64,000 bases of DNA from Spinellus fusiger (Eukaryota > Mucoromycota > Mucoromycetes > Mucorales > Phycomycetaceae): positions 1 to 64,000 of the forward strand of contig JALLLS010000047.1 of assembly GCA_025094145.1 (NCBI GenBank). The letters run 5' to 3'. Below are positions 2,267 to 20,300 of this stretch, piece after piece. A program made the translations under genes and the position numbers. The notes under the pieces are model-generated. The model did not search any database. It was not told the DNA's origin and saw nothing but the letters and a program-made list of their open reading frames with translations. Each line of letters starts with the position of its first letter. Positions within the stretch are counted from its first letter, which is position 1.

Positions 2267-5200
2267 ATGCCATATCTCTTACCTTTTACCTTTTTACTTT
2301 TTTTTTTTAATATATTTCATTACTTTATTTCCACTGTAATCTAAACGATCTATTCAATAAAATAAGATCTATACCAACTCTATTCTACTCTAATGTACTA
2401 TTGTCTACGGTCTGCCTTACCGACCAAGTTATAGACTAGGCTTGGTTACTTGAGATCGCCTTCAAGTAAAGCTCCCAAGTGTCAGATACATCTCCGCATG
2501 TAACACCTTTGACAAATCATATTTGTTAAACAACACTCAAGTCTGATTTTTGAGAAACCAAATCTTATTCTCAATGTATCTTGGTGTAGACCCTTTTGTT
2601 ATTTAAAGTTTTTTTTTTTTTTTGTTAAAGTTATTTATTTTTCTTCCGCCTTTTTTTTTTCTTTTTTTTTCTTTCTTTTCTCTCTCTCTTTGGAAAGAGA
2701 GCTACATTGGGTGGTGAACCTGACAAACAATAGGTGAGGCTTGAATAAAACAGAAATAAACATCACCACGCAAAGAAGCACAATGACTTTGTATCGAAAA
2801 AGAAGCACAATGACTTTGTATCGAAAAAGAAGCACAAGAAATAATACAAACTTTTTTTTTACGCTGCGTTCACCCCACCAAAAATATTAAAATAAAAAGG
2901 AAAAAATAGTCTATCTATGGAAATGCCTTTTCTATTTCAGACTGAGTGCTAAATGAACGACCCATTCTTCAGGGAATCAGGGCACTACTAACTGGATGAG
3001 GGGGGGGGAATATTAGTGAAACACTGAAATAAATGAATAAATAGAAATGGTATAGGAAATAAACATTGAATCAAGCAATGTGGCGACCCTCCCAATAACA
3101 CTTCTTTGACCCTTTATCACAACTTATGACTCCGTTGGGTGGTGGGTTTCGCTGAATAAAACTACAGTACAATCAGTATCTACTTTATTATCACTGCTGC
3201 TACCACTGTTATTATCATCAATGTCCCTAGTCTCATTGATCTAATAAATTCCATCCAAATGTCAAATGTCAAATAGAAGAAAGATAGAAAAAAAAGAAAA
3301 AAAAAAGAAAGAGGACGTGGGTATGTCTGTGCCTTGATCTTTTCTCTCTCCCTGGACTCTTTTTCTTTCTTTCTTTCTTGTTTTTTCACTACGCTCAATG
3401 GAGCAGACTATAAACTGACTTGAATCTTGATTTATCAGAGCTCCCATATTTGTAGCGATGAAACATCTCTATTTCAGAGGTCCGTGCATCCAATAGCAAC
3501 GGCACCTCAAGATAGACCTTTATGGTGCTGATGTTCGGTAGATACCTTCCGCTCTTGGTGTAGAATCTCCTATTTGATTCCATTATGATGAAGGATATAA
3601 ATAATTCACCAGTGTCATTTATTGATTTAGGTAAGACGTCCTCTTCTCTTTCTTGGAGAGAAAAACCCCCTTCAGATGACACATCAGAGCATGGAAGATA
3701 CATAGATAAACAGAATACTAAAATGATAATAAGAGAAGAGAGAGAGAAATGCAGTCTATCCTACCCTACTTCACAGTGCTAACTCTTTTGCTTTTAGAAA
3801 TGGAAATTCCCAGAGTGTGTTCTTAAAAGACAGAATGAGGGATGTGTGTATGTGTGTAATACTATTTGAAGGGGAGTGTTTTACAATGCATACAATAATA
3901 GGCAGCAAAGGGTGCTTATCTTTTCGCTTTCTCTCTTTCTCTTTCTCTGATAGGCTATACATATCAATCAATGTAAATATCTTCTCTTTTTTTTCTTTCT
4001 GTCTTTTTCCTTATTCTTATAAAGAATAGAGTACAAAAGAACAATTGACTTTCAAGAACAGTCCAGGTTTATGCTACATGACACAATCCAAACCCGTGGT
4101 GGGTAGTAAAAGTAGCTCTCATGATATGTGCTAGCTAGTCTGTTCTTCTCATCATCTCTGCAAGTGCTTCGTCTGTTTATAGAAATCAGAGCACTTCACA
4201 ACACTATGTATCATTTAGACAGCATTTGCTGTTCATTGAGAAGATCTATTCTTTTTTTTTTCCTTTCCTTTCATTATTTGGGTTTCCTTGTATTACGACT
4301 TGAATTATTAAGAAAGTATCGGACTTGGAGGATACTAAAAAAAAAAAGGATAGCTAGAGACCAGATAAAAAAGACACACAACCAAGTAACATCAGAGTAC
4401 TTTTATTACCCCAAATTTATCCAAATTTACTTTTATCTTTAATAGTTAAACTCTTTATGTATAAATATGTGTGTATAGTTATCAGAAGGGGTAGGCTAAG
4501 ATGATTTGTAGGCAAATAACTAAGGTACATTCAGGAAGTGTAGATAAATAGTATTTCCCGTAAGGTTCCAAGTTGGATTTTTTTTCTTTCTTTCTTTGTT
4601 CTGAGAAACAATATAAACACAGGAAAGTGGATTATTTAGTAAGTTGAATTTAAGTAACGTATGACTATTTTGTGCCAATGACACAGTTTGAGGGAAAAAG
4701 AAATGCACAAGGCAAGAGTTAAAATGATATGCGCTCAAGTAAATAACAATATCATTCGTATCTCAATACCCTTATTTTACTGTACCTCCGAAAAGGAGTG
4801 ATAATTGTAGGTGTAAATTATCATCTGCTTTCAAGGGTTGTTCTTTTAAAAGAGATCAGTAGTAGTACTTGAGACACACACAAACAATGCATATTTTCAT
4901 CTGTATTTCTACTCGTCGGGTAATACTTATTATGCTAGGATAGAAAAAGAGGGCATGTTTATTGGTGTGAGATGATTTTATCCAACTCTTTCACTAGAGC
5001 CAACTAATTATAGAACTATCAATCGTTTGTCATGCATATCTATGCGTTTTTATATATTAACTGCTGCACCTTATCACCACTATGATTTCTTCATTGTACT
5101 AATCATGGACTAAGCTCGATTCTATTGATCTATAGGCTACTCTTATTTACAAGAGATAGAATTATAAAACATTCAACAGCACAAGATGTATTCAAGATGC

Positions 5201-12830: not shown

Positions 12831-13759
12831 TACAGTCCCAAGTAATAAGTGACTAAACAAAAAATTAACTATTTTGAAACTATTTTTATTTTGAAGAATA
12901 AAGGCATATCTATCAGTCCAAGATGTTCATAATAAAAGGTTCATGGAATAACATAAGATTTGGAATAGTTGTTCTTTAAATGATTTTCTGCATCCTCATT
13001 ACAAAAATATTTCTCAGTACTTTGTAGCAAGGCCATTGTTCTTGATTATAGTGGAGCACCGTCTTCTTGGAAGAGGATGGTCTCATTGAGGTCTTCTTGC
13101 AATTTTTGGGATTAGGGAAGAAAGTGTTTGGCAAGTACATTGACACACTTGTCTTGATCGATTGATCCCTCCAAGAGTACAAGAGGCTCTACACCATTCC
13201 AATCGTCTTTGCTTGTGAGTAAGTGTCATACTAGGTTTTCTTGATGGTGAGCATGAAAAAAAACCCCTGAGTTTATTCATATATTTTATAAATGTTCTAT
13301 GGCAAATATCCACGCCTGCATCATTAATACTTTTCAAATGATATGCAAACATTTGCATAGGTTTTCTATGAATAGACAAAAACAATGTCAGTTTTGAATT
13401 AGATAAAATCTTTTCATGCCTTCCTGTGTGTATTTTGAGTTGAATTGTGCTTTTGTTTTTATACAATAGAACGATCTTGTCCACTGTGCTCTTTGGGAGG
13501 TCGAGATCTTCAGAAATCTATTGATAAGTAGCATGTCTTTTCCATTGTCCTATGATTTGACTTCTAATAAACATATCATACTCTCTTCTTTTGGTGGGGC
13601 TATCTTCATGTTCTTGGCTAAGAGTTGGCTGATTTTTATTGCTTGAAGTCATTTTTTGAATAAGTTAGAAAAGAAAAGAAAAAGACCTCTATTTTATTTT
13701 TTGTTCTTCAAAAATAAAAAAATGGTTTGCCGTTTAGTCACTTATTACATGGGACTGTA
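12831..13759 (-). mobile_element. Tc1/mariner-type element with 28-bp terminal inverted repeats
   Basis: 12831-12858 (TACAGTCCCAAGTAATAAGT then GACTAAAC) and the reverse complement of 13732-13759 agree at 27 of 28 positions. Each end includes TA, the expected target duplication. The 929-bp element is shorter than the 1.2-1.6 kb usual for Tc1 elements because the transposase gene inside is internally deleted (see the pseudogene entry). Nearly unchanged ends imply fairly recent movement compared with other relics here. Confidence 0.85.
12950..13652 (-). pseudogene. Internally deleted Tc1-type transposase
   Basis: The minus-strand reading starts with ATG at 13652 (MTSSNKNQPTLSQEHEDS). It runs through an HTH (ISEDLDLPKSTVDKIV) that follows one in-frame TAG, then a second HTH (NDAGVDICHRTFIKYMNKL) ending LTHKQRRLEW. 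The chain then jumps, in another frame, to WNGVEPLVLLEGSIDQDKCV, so the first catalytic block (the FSDE-type region) is missing. The second block, ILFQEDGAP with its acidic residue, is present near 13065-13085 and is followed by a stop. The third block (DLNPIE type) was not found. The protein cannot be an active transposase, so the element would need help in trans. Confidence 0.75.
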
Positions 13760-14480
13760 TATAACCACCTATCCATTAGATACTAGAAAGTTCTGCAAAG
13801 TATATTTGGTAATATACAAAATATACCTTTTGATTCCGGGTTTTTGAACAATAGAATAGATAATAGATAATATATTTATTATCATTATTGAAACTATTTA
13901 ATTTATTCATATTATAAAATTATTAATAAAATATTGAGAAGTAATATCAGCTCACTCTTTATAACTGTGAAGTGTGAGGTGTAAGAATAGCAAAGCAACT
14001 GTTTCCTAATTATTAATGACTATAAGGTGTAGAAGTAGTATCTCGGTATCTAAATATATTTACATTGTCAAGGGGTGTCGATTTAATAATTGTGTCTCCG
14101 AAAATATTTTCTATTGATTATAACTTCAGGCGTAGGAATAGTAATTCTATGGTGTATAAGATTGAACATACAAAGTCTTTCTTTTATTTCATAAACACAT
14201 ATAAAATAATTTATATAAATCCTCATTTAATATTTATCTACACTACCACCAGAAAAGGAGTCTTGCATAAGCACACTACCACTGTCATACTCATTAGTAA
14301 ATTCCATATATCTTAGTAATATACCATCTTTTCTTTCAGAACATACGACTGCAGGTATTCTTAGTAATAAACTAGTACTTTGACTCCAGATCAGACGGTA
14401 AAGCACTATTAGTCAAGCGACACTCTAATGCTTATGTTCATCAATAAGGCCAGACTCAAACATATTTTAAAGGGAAGATC
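13760..14480. other. AT-rich spacer before the HTH-array genes
   Basis: No supported gene. AT-rich DNA with short ORFs only. It forms the 3' flank of the minus-strand HTH-array gene. Confidence 0.5.
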
Positions 14481-15407
14481 TTAATTTCCTACACCAGCAT
14501 GTAGAAGAAGAAGGGCCTCTAAACTAGCTGGGTCGTGATCATGCATAATGCCTTCAATTTCTGGAATAGATTGCAATTCTATTTGAGAGCTATCTCCAAC
14601 TCGGCTTTCTCGGTTATTTTGTTCCTCCTTGTCTCTTATGGACTTGAGATATTCATTTTCTCTGTATGCCTTCAAGATTCTGGAAACAGTCGCTCGGCTA
14701 GTGCCAACCATAGCAGCAACATTTTTTATGCTAATGCCATTGACATTGCTCTCGTGCAGAATGGTGTTACGCATGGCTTCATCAATAGGTTTCATTTTTC
14801 TAGGAGATTTGCGGGTCTTTTTTGTATTTGGAGAATATTCCATTAAGATTCTGCCAATAGTTGATTTACTAGTGCCAACCATAGCAGCAATTTCCCTTTG
14901 GGTGAGGCCATTAGCATTGTACTGATGTAGAACAATTTTGCGCATGTTATCATCGACAGGTTTTCCTTTACTGCACGGTATGCGAGTGCTTCCAGTGCTA
15001 AGAATATGTTTCTTTAATATTCTACCAACTGTCTTCCGACTAATGTCCATCATGGCAGCAATCTCTTTTTGCTTGAGGCCATTGACATTGTGTTCATGTA
15101 GAATAATGTTGCGTATACTCTTATCAGCAGGCTTCCATTTGATACGAGGTATACGAGTATTTCCAGTACTAATAGCATGTTCAAGCAGGACTCTGCCAAC
15201 AGTCTTTGGGCTAATACCAACCATGGCAGCTATTTCTTCTTGGGTGAGGCCGCTGACCTCGCGCTCATGTAGAATGGTGTTGCGCATAGTTTCATCAACA
15301 ATTTTCTTTCTTCCACGAGTTCCACGAGTATTTAAAGTATTAGGAGTATTTTCAGTAGTAGTTTTTTTCTCTGTGGCAGTTTTTCTCTCTGTGGGTGAGG
15401 TAGGCAT
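14481..15407 (-). CDS. Tandem helix-turn-helix array protein, 4 units (left member of divergent pair)
   Basis: One uninterrupted ORF. I choose the ATG at 15407 (MPTSPTERKTATEK, 308 aa) over the upstream in-frame ATG at 15473, because the 22 extra codons are CT-rich, leader-like sequence. After a Thr/Lys-rich leader come four units of about 57 residues, each with a basic linker, DExMRNxILHExxVNGL (helix 1), TQxEIAAMVG (helix 2) and SxxTVxRIL (recognition helix). The fold pattern is the trihelical HTH found at the start of Tc1-type transposases. Unit starts are roughly residues 31, 88, 145 and 202. The last ~55 residues are acidic and end LEALLLLHAGVGN, with no known domain. No catalytic domain is present. 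Presumably a nuclear DNA-binding protein; function unknown. It faces the 7-unit paralogue at 15810 across a shared inverted repeat. Confidence 0.72.
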   Translation of the reverse strand: MPTSPTERKTATEKKTTTENTPNTLNTRGTRGRKKIVDETMRNTILHEREVSGLTQEEIAAMVGISPKTVGRVLLEHAISTGNTRIPRIKWKPADKSIRNIILHEHNVNGLKQKEIAAMMDISRKTVGRILKKHILSTGSTRIPCSKGKPVDDNMRKIVLHQYNANGLTQREIAAMVGTSKSTIGRILMEYSPNTKKTRKSPRKMKPIDEAMRNTILHESNVNGISIKNVAAMVGTSRATVSRILKAYRENEYLKSIRDKEEQNNRESRVGDSSQIELQSIPEIEGIMHDHDPASLEALLLLHAGVGN

Positions 15408-15526
15408 TGTATGATAAAAGTGGTGATAATGGAAGAATAAACAAAAAAAAAGGTTCGTATTTCGACACCTCAAGTCACATAAACATCGAATTGACCATAA
15501 TAAGCAGTCATTTCACTCCATCGACA
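15365..15526. repeat. Left arm of a 162-bp inverted repeat
   Basis: The reverse complement of this arm matches 15691-15852 with only about two mismatches that I can see (near 15412 and 15519), including an identical run of nine A/T. It covers the first 14 codons of the left HTH-array gene (from MPTSPT), its leader and about 120 bp of 5' flank. Confidence 0.88.
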
Positions 15527-15690
15527 CCAAGCCACATAAGTATAATCAAACAGCCACTTTATTATTCTTACACTCTATAATCCGCAGTTACAGAGTCAAC
15601 ATTAAGGTATCTTACCGTCTCATAGATTCAAATATTTTTTGTCAATACCTATTTTTTTATTGTGAAGAATGATATGCCTGTGGAACTTAG
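15527..15690. promoter_or_regulatory. Shared spacer between the divergent HTH-array genes
   Basis: A 164-bp unique AT-rich spacer between the two inverted-repeat arms. With the arms it must carry the regulatory DNA of both genes, since the start codons are only 402 bp apart. No clear TATA box in either direction stands out, so promoter positions are inferred from gene layout only. Confidence 0.45.
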
Positions 15691-15852
15691 TGTCGATAGA
15701 GTGAAATGACTGCTTATTATGGTCAATTCGATGTTTATGTGACTTGAGGTGTCGAAATACGAACCTTTTTTTTTGTTTATTCTTCCATTATCACCACTTT
15801 TATCACACAATGCCTACCTCACCCACAGAGAGAAAAACTGCCACAGAGAAAA
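15691..15852. repeat. Right arm of the 162-bp inverted repeat
   Basis: Mirror copy of 15365-15526. It covers about 120 bp of 5' flank and leader plus the first 14 codons of the right HTH-array gene. Identity stops abruptly at both arm ends, although the two proteins remain related beyond. Confidence 0.88.
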
Positions 15853-17321
15853 CTGTTGAAAAAGAGCTAGTAGCCACCAATGAGATAAATATCAACAATG
15901 AAAAGACTATTAATACTGAAAATAACAATAAGTCTCATGGCAAAAAGAGATCTATCACTGAGGACATACGCAACACCGTTATATATGAGAACAACGTCAA
16001 TGGACTCAGCCAGGTAAAGATAGCTGCCATGGTTGGTATTAACCCAAAGACCGTTGGCAATATCTTGCGTCAGCAAATGCTTATTACTGGAAACACATCT
16101 ATATCTTGCAACAAAGGAAAAGTCGTTGATGAAAACATGCGTAAAGCCATTCTTCACGAGCGAAACGTCAATGGCCTGAGTCAGACAAAGATTGCTAGCA
16201 TAGTCGGCACTAGCAAATCGACTGTTTCCAGAGTCGTAGTTGAATACATTCTTAGCACTGGAAAAATCCCTGAACAACGCAACAAAAAGAAGTATATTGA
16301 TGATAAGATACGCGATGCTGTAATACACGAGAGAAACGTCAATGGTTTTAACCAAACAAAGATTGCTAGCATAGTTGGTACTAGCAAATCAACTGTTTCC
16401 AGAATCATTGCTGAACACATTATTAATACTGGAAATATCCCTGAACATGGTAACAGAAAGAAGCCTATTGATGAAGAGATACGCAACACCATTATACACG
16501 AGCACAACACCAATGGTCTCAGCCAATGGAGAATTTCAGCCATGGTTGGTGTTAGCCCAATGACTGTTTCCAAAATCTTGAGTGAACATACTCATAGTAA
16601 TGGAAACACCTCCAAGCCTCCCAGAAAAAAGACATACATTGATGAAGGCATGCGCAACACCATTATACATGAGTACAATGTCAACGGTCTCACTCAAATG
16701 AAGATTGCTGCTATGGTTGGCGCAAGTGGAGCTACCATTTCTAGAGTATTGAATGATCATGCGCTTAGTAATGGAAATGCCTTTGTATCTCGTAGCAAAA
16801 TGAGAGTTGTTGATGAAAACAAGCGTAATGCTATTTTACATGAATACAATGTCAACGGCCTTAAGCAAAAAGATATTGCTGCTACAGTTGGTACTAGCCT
16901 ATCGACTGTTTTCAATATCTTGAAGACACACGCTCTTAGTAATGAAAACACCCACATCAACGCCAAAAATGGTACAAATACGGAGATTATTGATGAAAAA
17001 ACACGCAGCATTATTTTGCATGAGCACAATGTCAATGGCCTTAGTCAATGGAAAATAGCTACTATGGTTGGCCTTAGTCCATCGACTGTTTTCAGAATCT
17101 TAAAATCATTCAAGAAAGATGGGACACCTGAGCCTCTAAAAACTTTAGGGACGAGGTCTACCATCACCAAGAAAGACAAGTTGGAGTTTGCTCGTGAATT
17201 GAGTCATGAGTTGAGTCAAAATCCATCCCAGAGCATGAATGCAATCCGTATAAAAATGGCTAATCCACTTGCCCAGTCTACTTTCTACAGGCTGATGAGG
17301 CAGATCAAGACTATCATATAA
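15810..17321 (+). CDS. Tandem helix-turn-helix array protein, 7 units plus a C-terminal second HTH (right member of divergent pair)
   Basis: One uninterrupted ORF of 503 codons from the ATG at 15810; an in-frame ATG at 15744 would add 22 leader-like residues. The first 14 residues equal those of the left gene. An Asn/Thr/Glu-rich leader is followed by seven HTH units with a ~57-residue period (consensus DExxRNxIxHExNVNGLSQxKIAxMVGxSxxTVxxIL), separated by basic linkers with GNxS-like ends. After unit 7 the tail (TKKDKLEFARELSHELSQNP, then QSTFYRLMRQI) looks like the second HTH subdomain of Tc1-type or paired-type DNA-binding regions, so the C-terminus resembles a complete bipartite transposase DNA-binding domain with no catalytic part. 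The open frame, kept over seven repeats in decayed DNA, argues for a functional or recently functional gene. Presumably nuclear and DNA-binding; function unknown. Confidence 0.75.
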   Translation: MPTSPTERKTATEKTVEKELVATNEININNEKTINTENNNKSHGKKRSITEDIRNTVIYENNVNGLSQVKIAAMVGINPKTVGNILRQQMLITGNTSISCNKGKVVDENMRKAILHERNVNGLSQTKIASIVGTSKSTVSRVVVEYILSTGKIPEQRNKKKYIDDKIRDAVIHERNVNGFNQTKIASIVGTSKSTVSRIIAEHIINTGNIPEHGNRKKPIDEEIRNTIIHEHNTNGLSQWRISAMVGVSPMTVSKILSEHTHSNGNTSKPPRKKTYIDEGMRNTIIHEYNVNGLTQMKIAAMVGASGATISRVLNDHALSNGNAFVSRSKMRVVDENKRNAILHEYNVNGLKQKDIAATVGTSLSTVFNILKTHALSNENTHINAKNGTNTEIIDEKTRSIILHEHNVNGLSQWKIATMVGLSPSTVFRILKSFKKDGTPEPLKTLGTRSTITKKDKLEFARELSHELSQNPSQSMNAIRIKMANPLAQSTFYRLMRQIKTII

Positions 17322-20300
17322 AGAGTTGTATTTGAGCCTGTCTTCATTGACAAGTATAAACAGTAGAGTCTCGTTCGACTAATAGCAATTTACTGTTTCA
17401 TTTGATGAGTCAAAATATAGCACGGTGATAAAGAAAACTACCCTGAATTTGGGAGTGTAAATAGTTTGTTTCTCTTAGTTTAGATTTACGATCTTTTGTC
17501 GTGATAAGTGAAAAAGAGTTATATGAATCAAAATAAATTAACTAATATATCTTTTCTTATTATTACTGAAAACAAGACCGTTATCATTTGCTTCAAATAA
17601 CTATTCTCAAATATAGAGTTTTCTTTTAATCCCGACTTTGTTTAGTCCAGGATAAAAGTCATGAGATGTCTTTTAAATATAAATATGATGATATCTGTAC
17701 AATAAGATCATTCCATTTGTTGTGAAAAGATAAAAGTTTCTTTTCAAGGTATTATTACCAAGCCAAAGCTAATGGTTAGTAAATAAAACCACCTTTTCTT
17801 TAGACTTCTCAGGCATATCATTATTTTAGTGCTGCTGTTATCATTATTTATAATTGAGCCAGACAAGATGGATAATAACCCGTCATTGTCATAGATTACC
17901 AAAAATAAAAACATAAAAAAACATAAAAACATAAAAAAAACATCTTTATCTTTTCTACTCAAGCTTTAGTAACATGAATGCCTGATTGCTTATGCATTCA
18001 TCATAATAGATTAAGGGTTTGAGATATTAAATAAATCACACATTCATCACTTTGATAAAATCAACCTCATAAAAAAGTGTGCCTTGACCTGAATGAAAAA
18101 TAGAAACGATAGAGTATTATTTTCTTCCTATTAATAAATGGAAACTTAGTCTGTACTTTTCTTCTTCCTTTTCATAAAAATAAGGTGAGTGCTACGCATA
18201 GTAATAGCCTGAAGACTAAAACATTATATGTCTAGAAGACTCGCATACTTATTTCGACTTAAATGTAGATTTTACAATATTTTATGAGTAAATAGTTATA
18301 CCTCAACAAATCAATATCAACATATAGATTACTAGAGAGTGTTGGCTACTAAATGAGAACACTGAGACTATAGGAATCCTTTCTAGGATCTTTAGATAAC
18401 ATAAAAGAAACGTAAGTCTTTCGATCAAGTCTAAAATGGGAGTTTTTATTTATATATTGATATAAAAGTCACTACCACGATGCCTATCCCATAATTGTAT
18501 CTCTAACATGGATAGGGCTTAGTACCGACCTTAAACAAAAAATTAGTATGAAAGTTTAGTTTTATGTTTATGTTTCAAGTTTCAAGTTATTTCTATATAT
18601 TAGGACACCATTTTTTATCTTCTCATAGAGTGTTGATGAAGTAATAATAGTATTCCCGAACCTATTCCAGAGCTATCTAACCATTCAAGCAAGAAATTAT
18701 AACTCATCTGTACTGGTGATGAGAAAAGAATTGTAGTATGTACATTATGTAAAGTCTACATTAAGTAAAATAAATTTAAGTGCGCACAATAATTTAGATT
18801 ATTTCCGTAGAATATTGAGAGCCTACTACAAAGTTAGTAAAAAAGTTGAAAAAGAGAAATGACCAAATGAAACCAATCTTGCTAGCCAGTTGTTTTTATT
18901 AGTATCTCTTGTTCTTTTTACAATAAATAGATGGTACAATGTTGTGTTTAATGATTCAAATATGTAATGTATTCAATAAGGAAAGTATTTTTATAGGCTA
19001 GCTTGATGAATTCAGTCATATTTATTATTATTATTAAGTAATTATAATTCATAGTTAAAATAAGCTGAAACATGTCTTAGAAAATTAAGCAATGCAAACA
19101 TACGGATAGAATCTCGAACCAAATCTCGAACATTTTCAAGCCTCCTCCTGGGCAATGGGATATATTCTCTTTTACAGCGAAAGAAATAGAGTGCCGATGA
19201 ATTATTAAAATGACTATCCTTCTGGCAATTTTTTTTTATTAATATGTATAATGAAAAGAATTTAAATGGATACAATTCCATACAACAGTCGGTTTAAATA
19301 GCGCTCGTTAAAGAGAGAACCACCAGCCCAACTCTTTATTGTCACAAATTGATGAATAAATAGTGCCTCTTAATAAAAACATAGAGCTCTATTAAAATAT
19401 ACTATTAAGCATATTTAGCACATTTATATAATGATTTCATGTTGTATACATTTTAAGTTTATGTTTGAAAAGAAACCTGGAGATTGTATATTTGTGTCAA
19501 AAGCGGTGAAACCTCCGCTGTATTTTTTTTTATATAAATAATAATAAAAACTTTGTTAACTTAATTTCATTTGGTAATTTTTAGCATATTCTATACTGAT
19601 TTTACTCTACATAGTTAACATAGTTAACATATTCTACACTAATTATATTCTAAATAGTTAAAAAGCAGGCTTCAAGGAAATAAAAGCAAACAAACAAACA
19701 AACAAACAAACAAAATACAGAACTGTTTCTATAAATCATTGGATAAATGTAGAGATTACAACATCAACAAAAAACATTAATAGTCTTATGAATAAATGAC
19801 GATGGACTATTTGAGTGCTGTCTGTTCTTGGTTATTGCATACTATTAAGTGATATTGTATGGATTAAAATTATAGTCTATCTTTCTGTACTATTTGCATA
19901 AAACCCCTTTCCAAATAGACTTTATTATTTATTTTATCAAGCAACACTAAAGAACATGACCTTGATAGTTTATTTATATTCAATAGATTATATAGTTTTT
20001 TTTAAAAAAGAAAAAAAAAGAAAAAAAAAAAGAGTGAGCACTAACCTATTTATATTAGGCTGGCGTTGTTAATGCTTTGCATCAAACCTTTATTATTATT
20101 ATAAACTCTGTAAGTTTTAACTGTTGGAGAATAATCATTATAACATTCAGAACAGTCAATACATATTCTTCACTTGGCTAAAATAGAATGATTTTCTTAA
20201 CTCAATAGAATAGCCGCAGTAAAATATGTAATTCAATTCATCTTAATATAGCCTCTATAAACATAGTATTTAAAACATCTTCTATTGCAAGATAAATAAT

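Follow-up and report, generated by a model that had tools for sequence, protein, structure and literature searches.

Tandem Arrays of a Tc1-Type Helix-Turn-Helix in Spinellus fusiger: A Putative Lineage-Restricted Family of Modular DNA-Binding Proteins

A Divergent Pair of Array Genes

The window analysed here, a 64,000-nucleotide (nt) stretch of the fungus Spinellus fusiger (Mucorales; assembly GCA_025094145.1, contig JALLLS010000047.1, positions 1 to 64,000), contains two divergent genes, here called A and B, whose products are composed largely of tandem copies of a 57-residue helix-turn-helix (HTH) unit. Both are intact open reading frames (ORFs) with the 308 and 503 residues given in an earlier reading of the sequence (hereafter the original prediction), and their features are collected in Table 1. 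A repeat search found four copies in A and seven in B, the predicted copy numbers, at a period of 171 nt that is interrupted by a single 180-nt step. Among the best 25 of 93 Pfam rows for A and of 58 for B, HTH families appear almost throughout, headed by HTH_23 (E values of 4.1e-24 and 7.5e-36, respectively), and no catalytic transposase domain (DDE/D) is found among these 25 rows for either protein, as had been predicted.

An AlphaFold model of B, built from an alignment of 15 family members, contains seven three-helix HTHs with a predicted local distance difference test score (pLDDT) of about 80, joined by linkers of low confidence. Residues 454-498 form an eighth, distinct three-helix domain, with a pLDDT of about 50-62 in the whole model and about 80 when modelled together with the last unit as a 113-residue piece; this domain is the counterpart of the RED HTH in Tc1 transposases. 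The original prediction had described the arrays as pure, which is not entirely so: B ends in the RED-like HTH and A in an acidic tail.

The genes lie head to head in a palindrome with arms of 180 nt, and identity between the arms reaches 153/154 in the gene-adjacent part (15365-15518). In the S. fusiger genome, a search that skips very common words found no further copies of the arms except one 71% match around the spacer. The 3' ends of A and B also match one another in inverted orientation; we take these to be paralogous 3' ends and not a transposon end. The possibility that A and B are recent duplicates of each other was rejected: their best matches are two different loci (L043 for A and L027 for B), neither gene is among the other's eight best rows, and their tails differ in class (X in A and R in B, as described below). 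Because the gene bodies are distant while the arms are 95% identical, the pair probably represents two distant family members, head to head, in which the upstream and start region was recently exchanged or homogenised. The two genes could be expressed from this single palindromic upstream region.

A Tc1-like deletion derivative (12831-13759) with 28-nt inverted ends neighbours the pair and recurs at 39 or more further sites across the genome.

Table 1. Features of the array gene pair (window positions) and near-identical upstream stretches of other loci (locus positions)
Feature	Positions	Strand	Remark
Array gene A, 308 residues, four HTH units, class X (acidic) tail	14481-15407	-	Intact ORF
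A unit 1, residues 30-86	15150-15320	-	Calculated from residue numbers
A unit 2, residues 87-143	14979-15149	-	
A unit 3, residues 144-200	14808-14978	-	
A unit 4, residues 201-257	14637-14807	-	
A acidic tail	14484-14636	-	Homologous DNA codes for the RED-like tail in B, in another frame
A 3' end and downstream	14376-14506		Matches 17283-17417 in inverted orientation at 70%
Left arm of palindrome, covering the upstream region and first codons of A	15365-15544		171/180 identical to right arm
Palindrome spacer, 128 nt	15545-15672		
Right arm of palindrome, covering the first codons of B and the upstream region	15673-15852		171/180 identical to left arm
Array gene B, 503 residues, seven HTH units and RED-like tail	15810-17321	+	Intact ORF
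B unit 1, residues 42-98	15933-16103	+	From unit positions and AlphaFold model
B unit 2, residues 99-155	16104-16274	+	
B unit 3, residues 156-212	16275-16445	+	
B unit 4, residues 213-269	16446-16616	+	
B unit 5, residues 270-326	16617-16787	+	
B unit 6, residues 327-383	16788-16958	+	
B unit 7, residues 387-443	16968-17138	+	
B tail, RED-like second HTH, helices 454-470, 472-482, 486-498	17148-17318	+	
B 3' end and downstream	17283-17417		Inverted match to 14376-14506
L021, near-identical upstream stretch	4557-5041		
L036, near-identical upstream stretch	3584-4063		
L037, near-identical upstream stretch	2697-2937		
L039, near-identical upstream stretch	3964-4439		

A Genome-Wide Array Family and Its Transposase Relatives

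Searching the S. fusiger genome (38.08 Mb in 197 contigs) with protein B gave 101 match rows, which were sorted by hand. Fifty-two are the first rows of separate places (51 if two rows on contig C137 are one), 21 are further matches inside places already counted, and 24, at 31-40% identity and spanning about the last unit and tail, are of the type of ordinary transposases (L042 and L044 were fetched from among them); the remaining four, short and marginal, were excluded from the place count. The multi-HTH family anticipated in the original prediction thus extends genome-wide over at least about 50 places, a lower bound because 85 of 590 candidates were scored, with places other than the fetched loci called arrays by match length alone. 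The first-listed match is free of stops in 48 of the 52 places. Ten of 51 places fall on contig C110, which makes up 3.1% of the genome (P 3e-6), and five on C137 (P 4e-5), both contigs having been picked after counting.

Twenty of the best-scoring loci were fetched, along with four short stretches that include L041, L042, L043, and L044. A hidden Markov model made from the 11 window units identified 127 units in the 20 loci and the window (five of them lone units in flanks), with arrays of 4-9 units, while L041 (a 596-residue frame) and L043 (494 residues) have, by eye, about 10 and 6 units. All 22 other loci read are arrays, of 4 to about 10 units, and three (L022, L025, and L040) are broken by stops. 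The 24 array genes read comprise seven of class R (B, L024, L027, L030, L031, L033, and L038), whose frames end just after a RED-like tail, 15 of class X, and two (L028 and L041) with neither tail.

In one subfamily, about 200 nt upstream of the gene are near-identical between copies and, by eye, exceed the coding arrays in identity (Table 1). Equal-scoring pairs of transposase or array matches on opposite strands a few kb apart were seen at C150:112430/119640, C24:3099/6267, C6:1390/3820, and C182:1535/14650; such pairs are numerous, as if the genome or assembly contained many recent inverted duplications.

The parent architecture of the arrays is found in the same genome. L042 encodes a complete Tc1-type transposase in one open frame, with a single unit followed by PF01498 (a RED-type HTH) and DDE_3. 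The array unit aligns with its first, PAI-like HTH, the stretch of B from the last unit through the tail aligns at 35% with the unit and RED of L042, and the RED second HTH recurs in B and the six other class R loci. On this sequence evidence, the array proteins are the N-terminal part of a transposase of this kind, in which the first HTH is repeated 4 to about 10 times and nothing follows RED, in keeping with the predicted amplification of a transposase DNA-binding unit.

This descent is also what would be expected if the arrays serve transposons, either as genes of non-autonomous elements or as truncated-transposase repressors that bind Tc1 ends and moderate transposition, for which the P-element KP protein is the model. 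Tc1-type sequence is indeed common in the flanks, where PF01498 is matched by 7 and DDE_3 by 4 of 50 ORFs scanned (49 of 110 listed and one from the window), the others including one reverse transcriptase and a few host-like genes, such as those for ribosomal L16, CTNNBL, and ApbA. However, no constant ends or terminal repeats were found around the arrays in the 20 loci and the window, homology boundaries vary from pair to pair of array loci, and the clustering of places is consistent with local duplication. The search for further copies of the window arms found none, as against the 39 or more other places of the neighbouring Tc1-like element, and the DDE_3 flank ORFs that were traced (at L025 and L035, two of the four) lie on the strand opposite to the array. 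We regard service to transposons as unlikely but not negligible.

Two related readings were considered and set aside. Inverted repeats of about 100 nt around L022, L023, and L025 looked like the ends of a mobile element, a reading dropped because an extra copy of the repeat lies beside L022 and L025 and because homology boundaries differ between pairs. The idea that an array supplies one part of a transposase encoded in two pieces was likewise dropped, since nearby transposase pieces are never in the array frame in the cases traced. At least three DDE_3 matches (C110:632537, C110:465663, and C47:36419; among the matches listed from 150 scored of 1544 candidates) lie within about 4 kb of an array place, and a separate Tc1 N-terminus is found some 1.1 kb upstream of L022. 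We take these pieces to be neighbours; a two-gene arrangement may occur at places outside those read.

Variation and Constraint in Units and Tails

Variability among the units was scored as entropy over 51 columns of 116 units, 11 of the 127 having been dropped as short or non-array. It peaks at columns 39 (3.36 bits) and 38 (3.06 bits), followed by 7, 43, 49, 47, and 46. In the model, columns 38 and 39 begin the third helix (residues 79-93 in unit 1) as its residues 1 and 2, which are classical base-reading places of an HTH. DNA-facing columns (38, 39, 42, 43, and 46, a set chosen after the first entropy table) exceed other polar columns (P 0.001), and 103 distinct recognition octets, gapped strings included, occur among the 127 units. 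The 127 units have no conserved cysteine column, so that the conserved Cys2-His2 ligands of C2H2 fingers are lacking.

Constraint was estimated as the ratio of nonsynonymous to synonymous differences per site (pN/pS). In an independent set of 43 pairs, each unit used once and pairs 75% to <99.9% identical, pN/pS is 0.41 (0.34-0.51) outside columns 38, 39, 42, and 43, and 1.13 (0.67-2.31) at columns 38 and 39, where pN is 2.9 (1.75-4.2) times that of the rest of the unit. Larger sets, whose pairs share ancestry, give 1.09 at columns 38 and 39 and 0.62 overall for 287 within-array pairs, 1.30 and 0.58 for 884 pairs at least 80% identical, and 2.31 and 0.62 for 78 pairs at least 90% identical. 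Among the window units the ratio is 0.56 within A, 0.60 within B, and 0.61 between A and B. These values place the unit scaffold under purifying selection; the original prediction had suggested selection or recent birth of the frames, and the overall ratios between units and paralogues (0.41-0.62) lie below the value near 1 that would have spoken against it. At the presumed reading residues the data are compatible with either free or diversifying change.

An acidic tail is present in gene A and in 14 other loci (class X). The reading of the tail of A as unrelated sequence was rejected on two grounds. The ends of A and B align as the same DNA read in different frames, and a RED profile built from nine sequences detects a RED relic in the +1 frame of all 15 class X tails (E 1e-14 to 5e-4); in frame 0 the lowest E is 0.055, and shuffled controls, 20 per tail, reach 0.69 at best. 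We conclude from the alignments that the tail is the product of a frame change in RED DNA. In the frame used, pN/pS is 0.40 (10 close pairs pooled) or 0.37 (six pairs among four groups), and differences among the tails of L021, L023, and L029 are distributed 35/41/68 over codon positions 1/2/3. Within tail groups the third-position excess is slight (23/26/30; 12/15/19 for A versus L043).

A programmed frameshift or an intron may in principle restore RED in class X. The 35/41/68 pattern in the used frame argues against this, as do stops before or inside the +1-frame relic. Thirteen of the 15 tails, e.g., at the C-terminus of L023, carry the motif [IV]-K-[HQ]-E, which fits the SUMO attachment consensus; the tails of A and L043 share DHDPxSLxALLLLHAG instead and lack the lysine of that motif. 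These motifs could be effector motifs. The class X tail would exemplify the birth of a conserved protein end through a change of frame, the former domain remaining readable in the other one.

Tandem repeats grow easily, some array copies are broken, and pN/pS in the recognition helix is near 1, all of which would suit arrays that arose incidentally, when slippage and recombination acted on dead transposon DNA, and that expanded under neutral or relaxed conditions and are open by chance. Such an origin is very improbable given the ratio of 0.41 outside the reading columns (upper bound 0.51). In 400 simulations, a neutral 1.5-kb frame stayed open in 1.25% of cases at 0.1 and in 0% at 0.2 substitutions per site, and most of the array frames are open at divergences where simulated ones close. 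In most groups the tails show constraint in the frame now used, and the 5' regions of L021, L036, L037, L039, and L040 are near-identical, both of which speak against neutral expansion. Many HTHs on flexible basic linkers, low in confidence in the model, could also coat DNA non-specifically, as packing or architectural proteins do. The focus of variation on the first residues of the recognition helix would be unexpected if specificity were irrelevant, and we consider such a role improbable.

Interpretation and Comparison with Known Systems

We favour the reading, with a probability of roughly 0.6, that these genes constitute a lineage-restricted, transposase-derived family of modular, presumably DNA-binding proteins, which probably act as regulators or transposon repressors. 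The sequences show the PAI-like first HTH multiplied and the catalytic half absent, with RED kept (class R) or replaced by a frame-change tail (class X). As we picture it, every HTH would use its own recognition helix to read a few base pairs, flexible basic linkers would combine the separate contacts so that a single long composite site is recognised, and the tail would bring in partners. The proteins would then be sequence-specific regulators, most plausibly repressors of transposons or other repeated DNA; the ancestral HTH presumably bound transposon ends, which makes transposon repression plausible. New specificities could arise by duplication or loss of units and by change in the recognition helix. 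If this is correct, the family offers material for an HTH recognition code and an example of transposase parts used as a modular DNA reader.

Several observations weigh against this interpretation. The structural resemblance to Tc3, Pax, and Mos1 is weak, and for B Foldseek places unrelated proteins at the top. Three of the 20 fetched loci are split by stops and others have decayed units or short tails, in a sample made up chiefly of top scorers and thus biased toward open frames. The highest pN in the 43 pairs is at column 7, ahead of the first helix, followed by 39, 28, 42, 43, and 38, and pairs beyond that set are uncorrected for shared ancestry or gene conversion. Relaxed constraint at columns 38 and 39 is possible, since the value there is not significantly above 1. 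For the tails, pN/pS of A is 0.54 versus L043 but 0.57-0.88 versus other groups, A and L043 compared with three others show little third-position excess (103/159/170), and class R tails have a ratio of 0.70 (three pairs).

The original prediction had suggested that the family could be undescribed, and our searches agree. In a collection of 5.8 billion proteins, where candidates sharing most words were scored and records from S. fusiger itself may be absent, neither protein B (7996 candidates scored) nor the 15-member alignment (7995 candidates) had a relative at E 0.001 or better. A BRO1-like gene of the window, used as a control, found relatives in Rhizopus microsporus (65%), Zychaea, Backusella, Umbelopsis, and others, which indicates that the collection includes Mucorales. 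In viral contigs, 122 pattern matches to the arrays were obtained, none of which was confirmed. No description of HTH arrays of this kind was found in the literature as judged by titles and abstract openings; the phrase "tandem helix-turn-helix" occurs once, as a phrase match only, in PMC10085805.

Among known systems, the closest is the Tc1/mariner (IS630-Tc1) group with its PAI and RED HTHs, since the array unit, the RED-like tail, and their order match L042. The arrays differ in having no DDE domain, 4 to about 10 first HTHs, and recognition helices specific to each unit, and in class X genes also in the loss of RED through a frame change. Pax proteins likewise have two different three-helix HTHs on a linker, although paired domains have two HTHs and not up to ten. 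Pax6 (E 0.03) and Pax5 (E 0.07) head the Foldseek list for the C-terminal part of B and were seen again in a second search, a weak match, and L042 matches Pfam PAX at 8.1e-05, just over the cut-off.

Other DNA-binding domains of transposons, such as Pogo/CENP-B and HTH-Psq, have been co-opted in animals, with expansions in individual species (PMC10027918), although the passages of that paper available to us contain no tandem arrays of a Tc1 HTH. The TnsD target selectors of Tn7 have several HTHs per protein, tied to target choice (PMC10293859). B matches Pfam TnsD at 2.6e-12, above the cut-off, over part of the model, which probably reflects generic HTHs; TnsD differs from the arrays in being bacterial and in having a TniQ core.

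TAL effectors are also built of modular repeats with variable reading residues, but differ from the arrays in repeat length and fold. C2H2 (KRAB) zinc-finger arrays combine tandem modules, a conserved scaffold, and variable base-reading residues in clustered, fast-changing genes. The arrays described here resemble them in their tandem modules and in the greater variability of the presumed base-reading columns 39 and 38 relative to the scaffold (column 7 being high as well), and differ in having the HTH fold, a unit with no conserved cysteine, and a transposase origin. It is a tentative suggestion, possible rather than probable, that they are a fungal counterpart of zinc-finger arrays: about 50 fast-changing, transposase-derived proteins whose HTHs, every one with its own recognition helix, jointly read long DNA sites so as to recognise and repress transposons, with the acidic tail as effector. 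To our knowledge, long natural arrays of differing DNA-reading modules are known for zinc fingers and TAL repeats and not for HTHs. Transposase-derived DNA-binding proteins and modular arrays are each familiar; their combination on an HTH scaffold whose recognition helices vary is, within the reach of our searches, apparently new.

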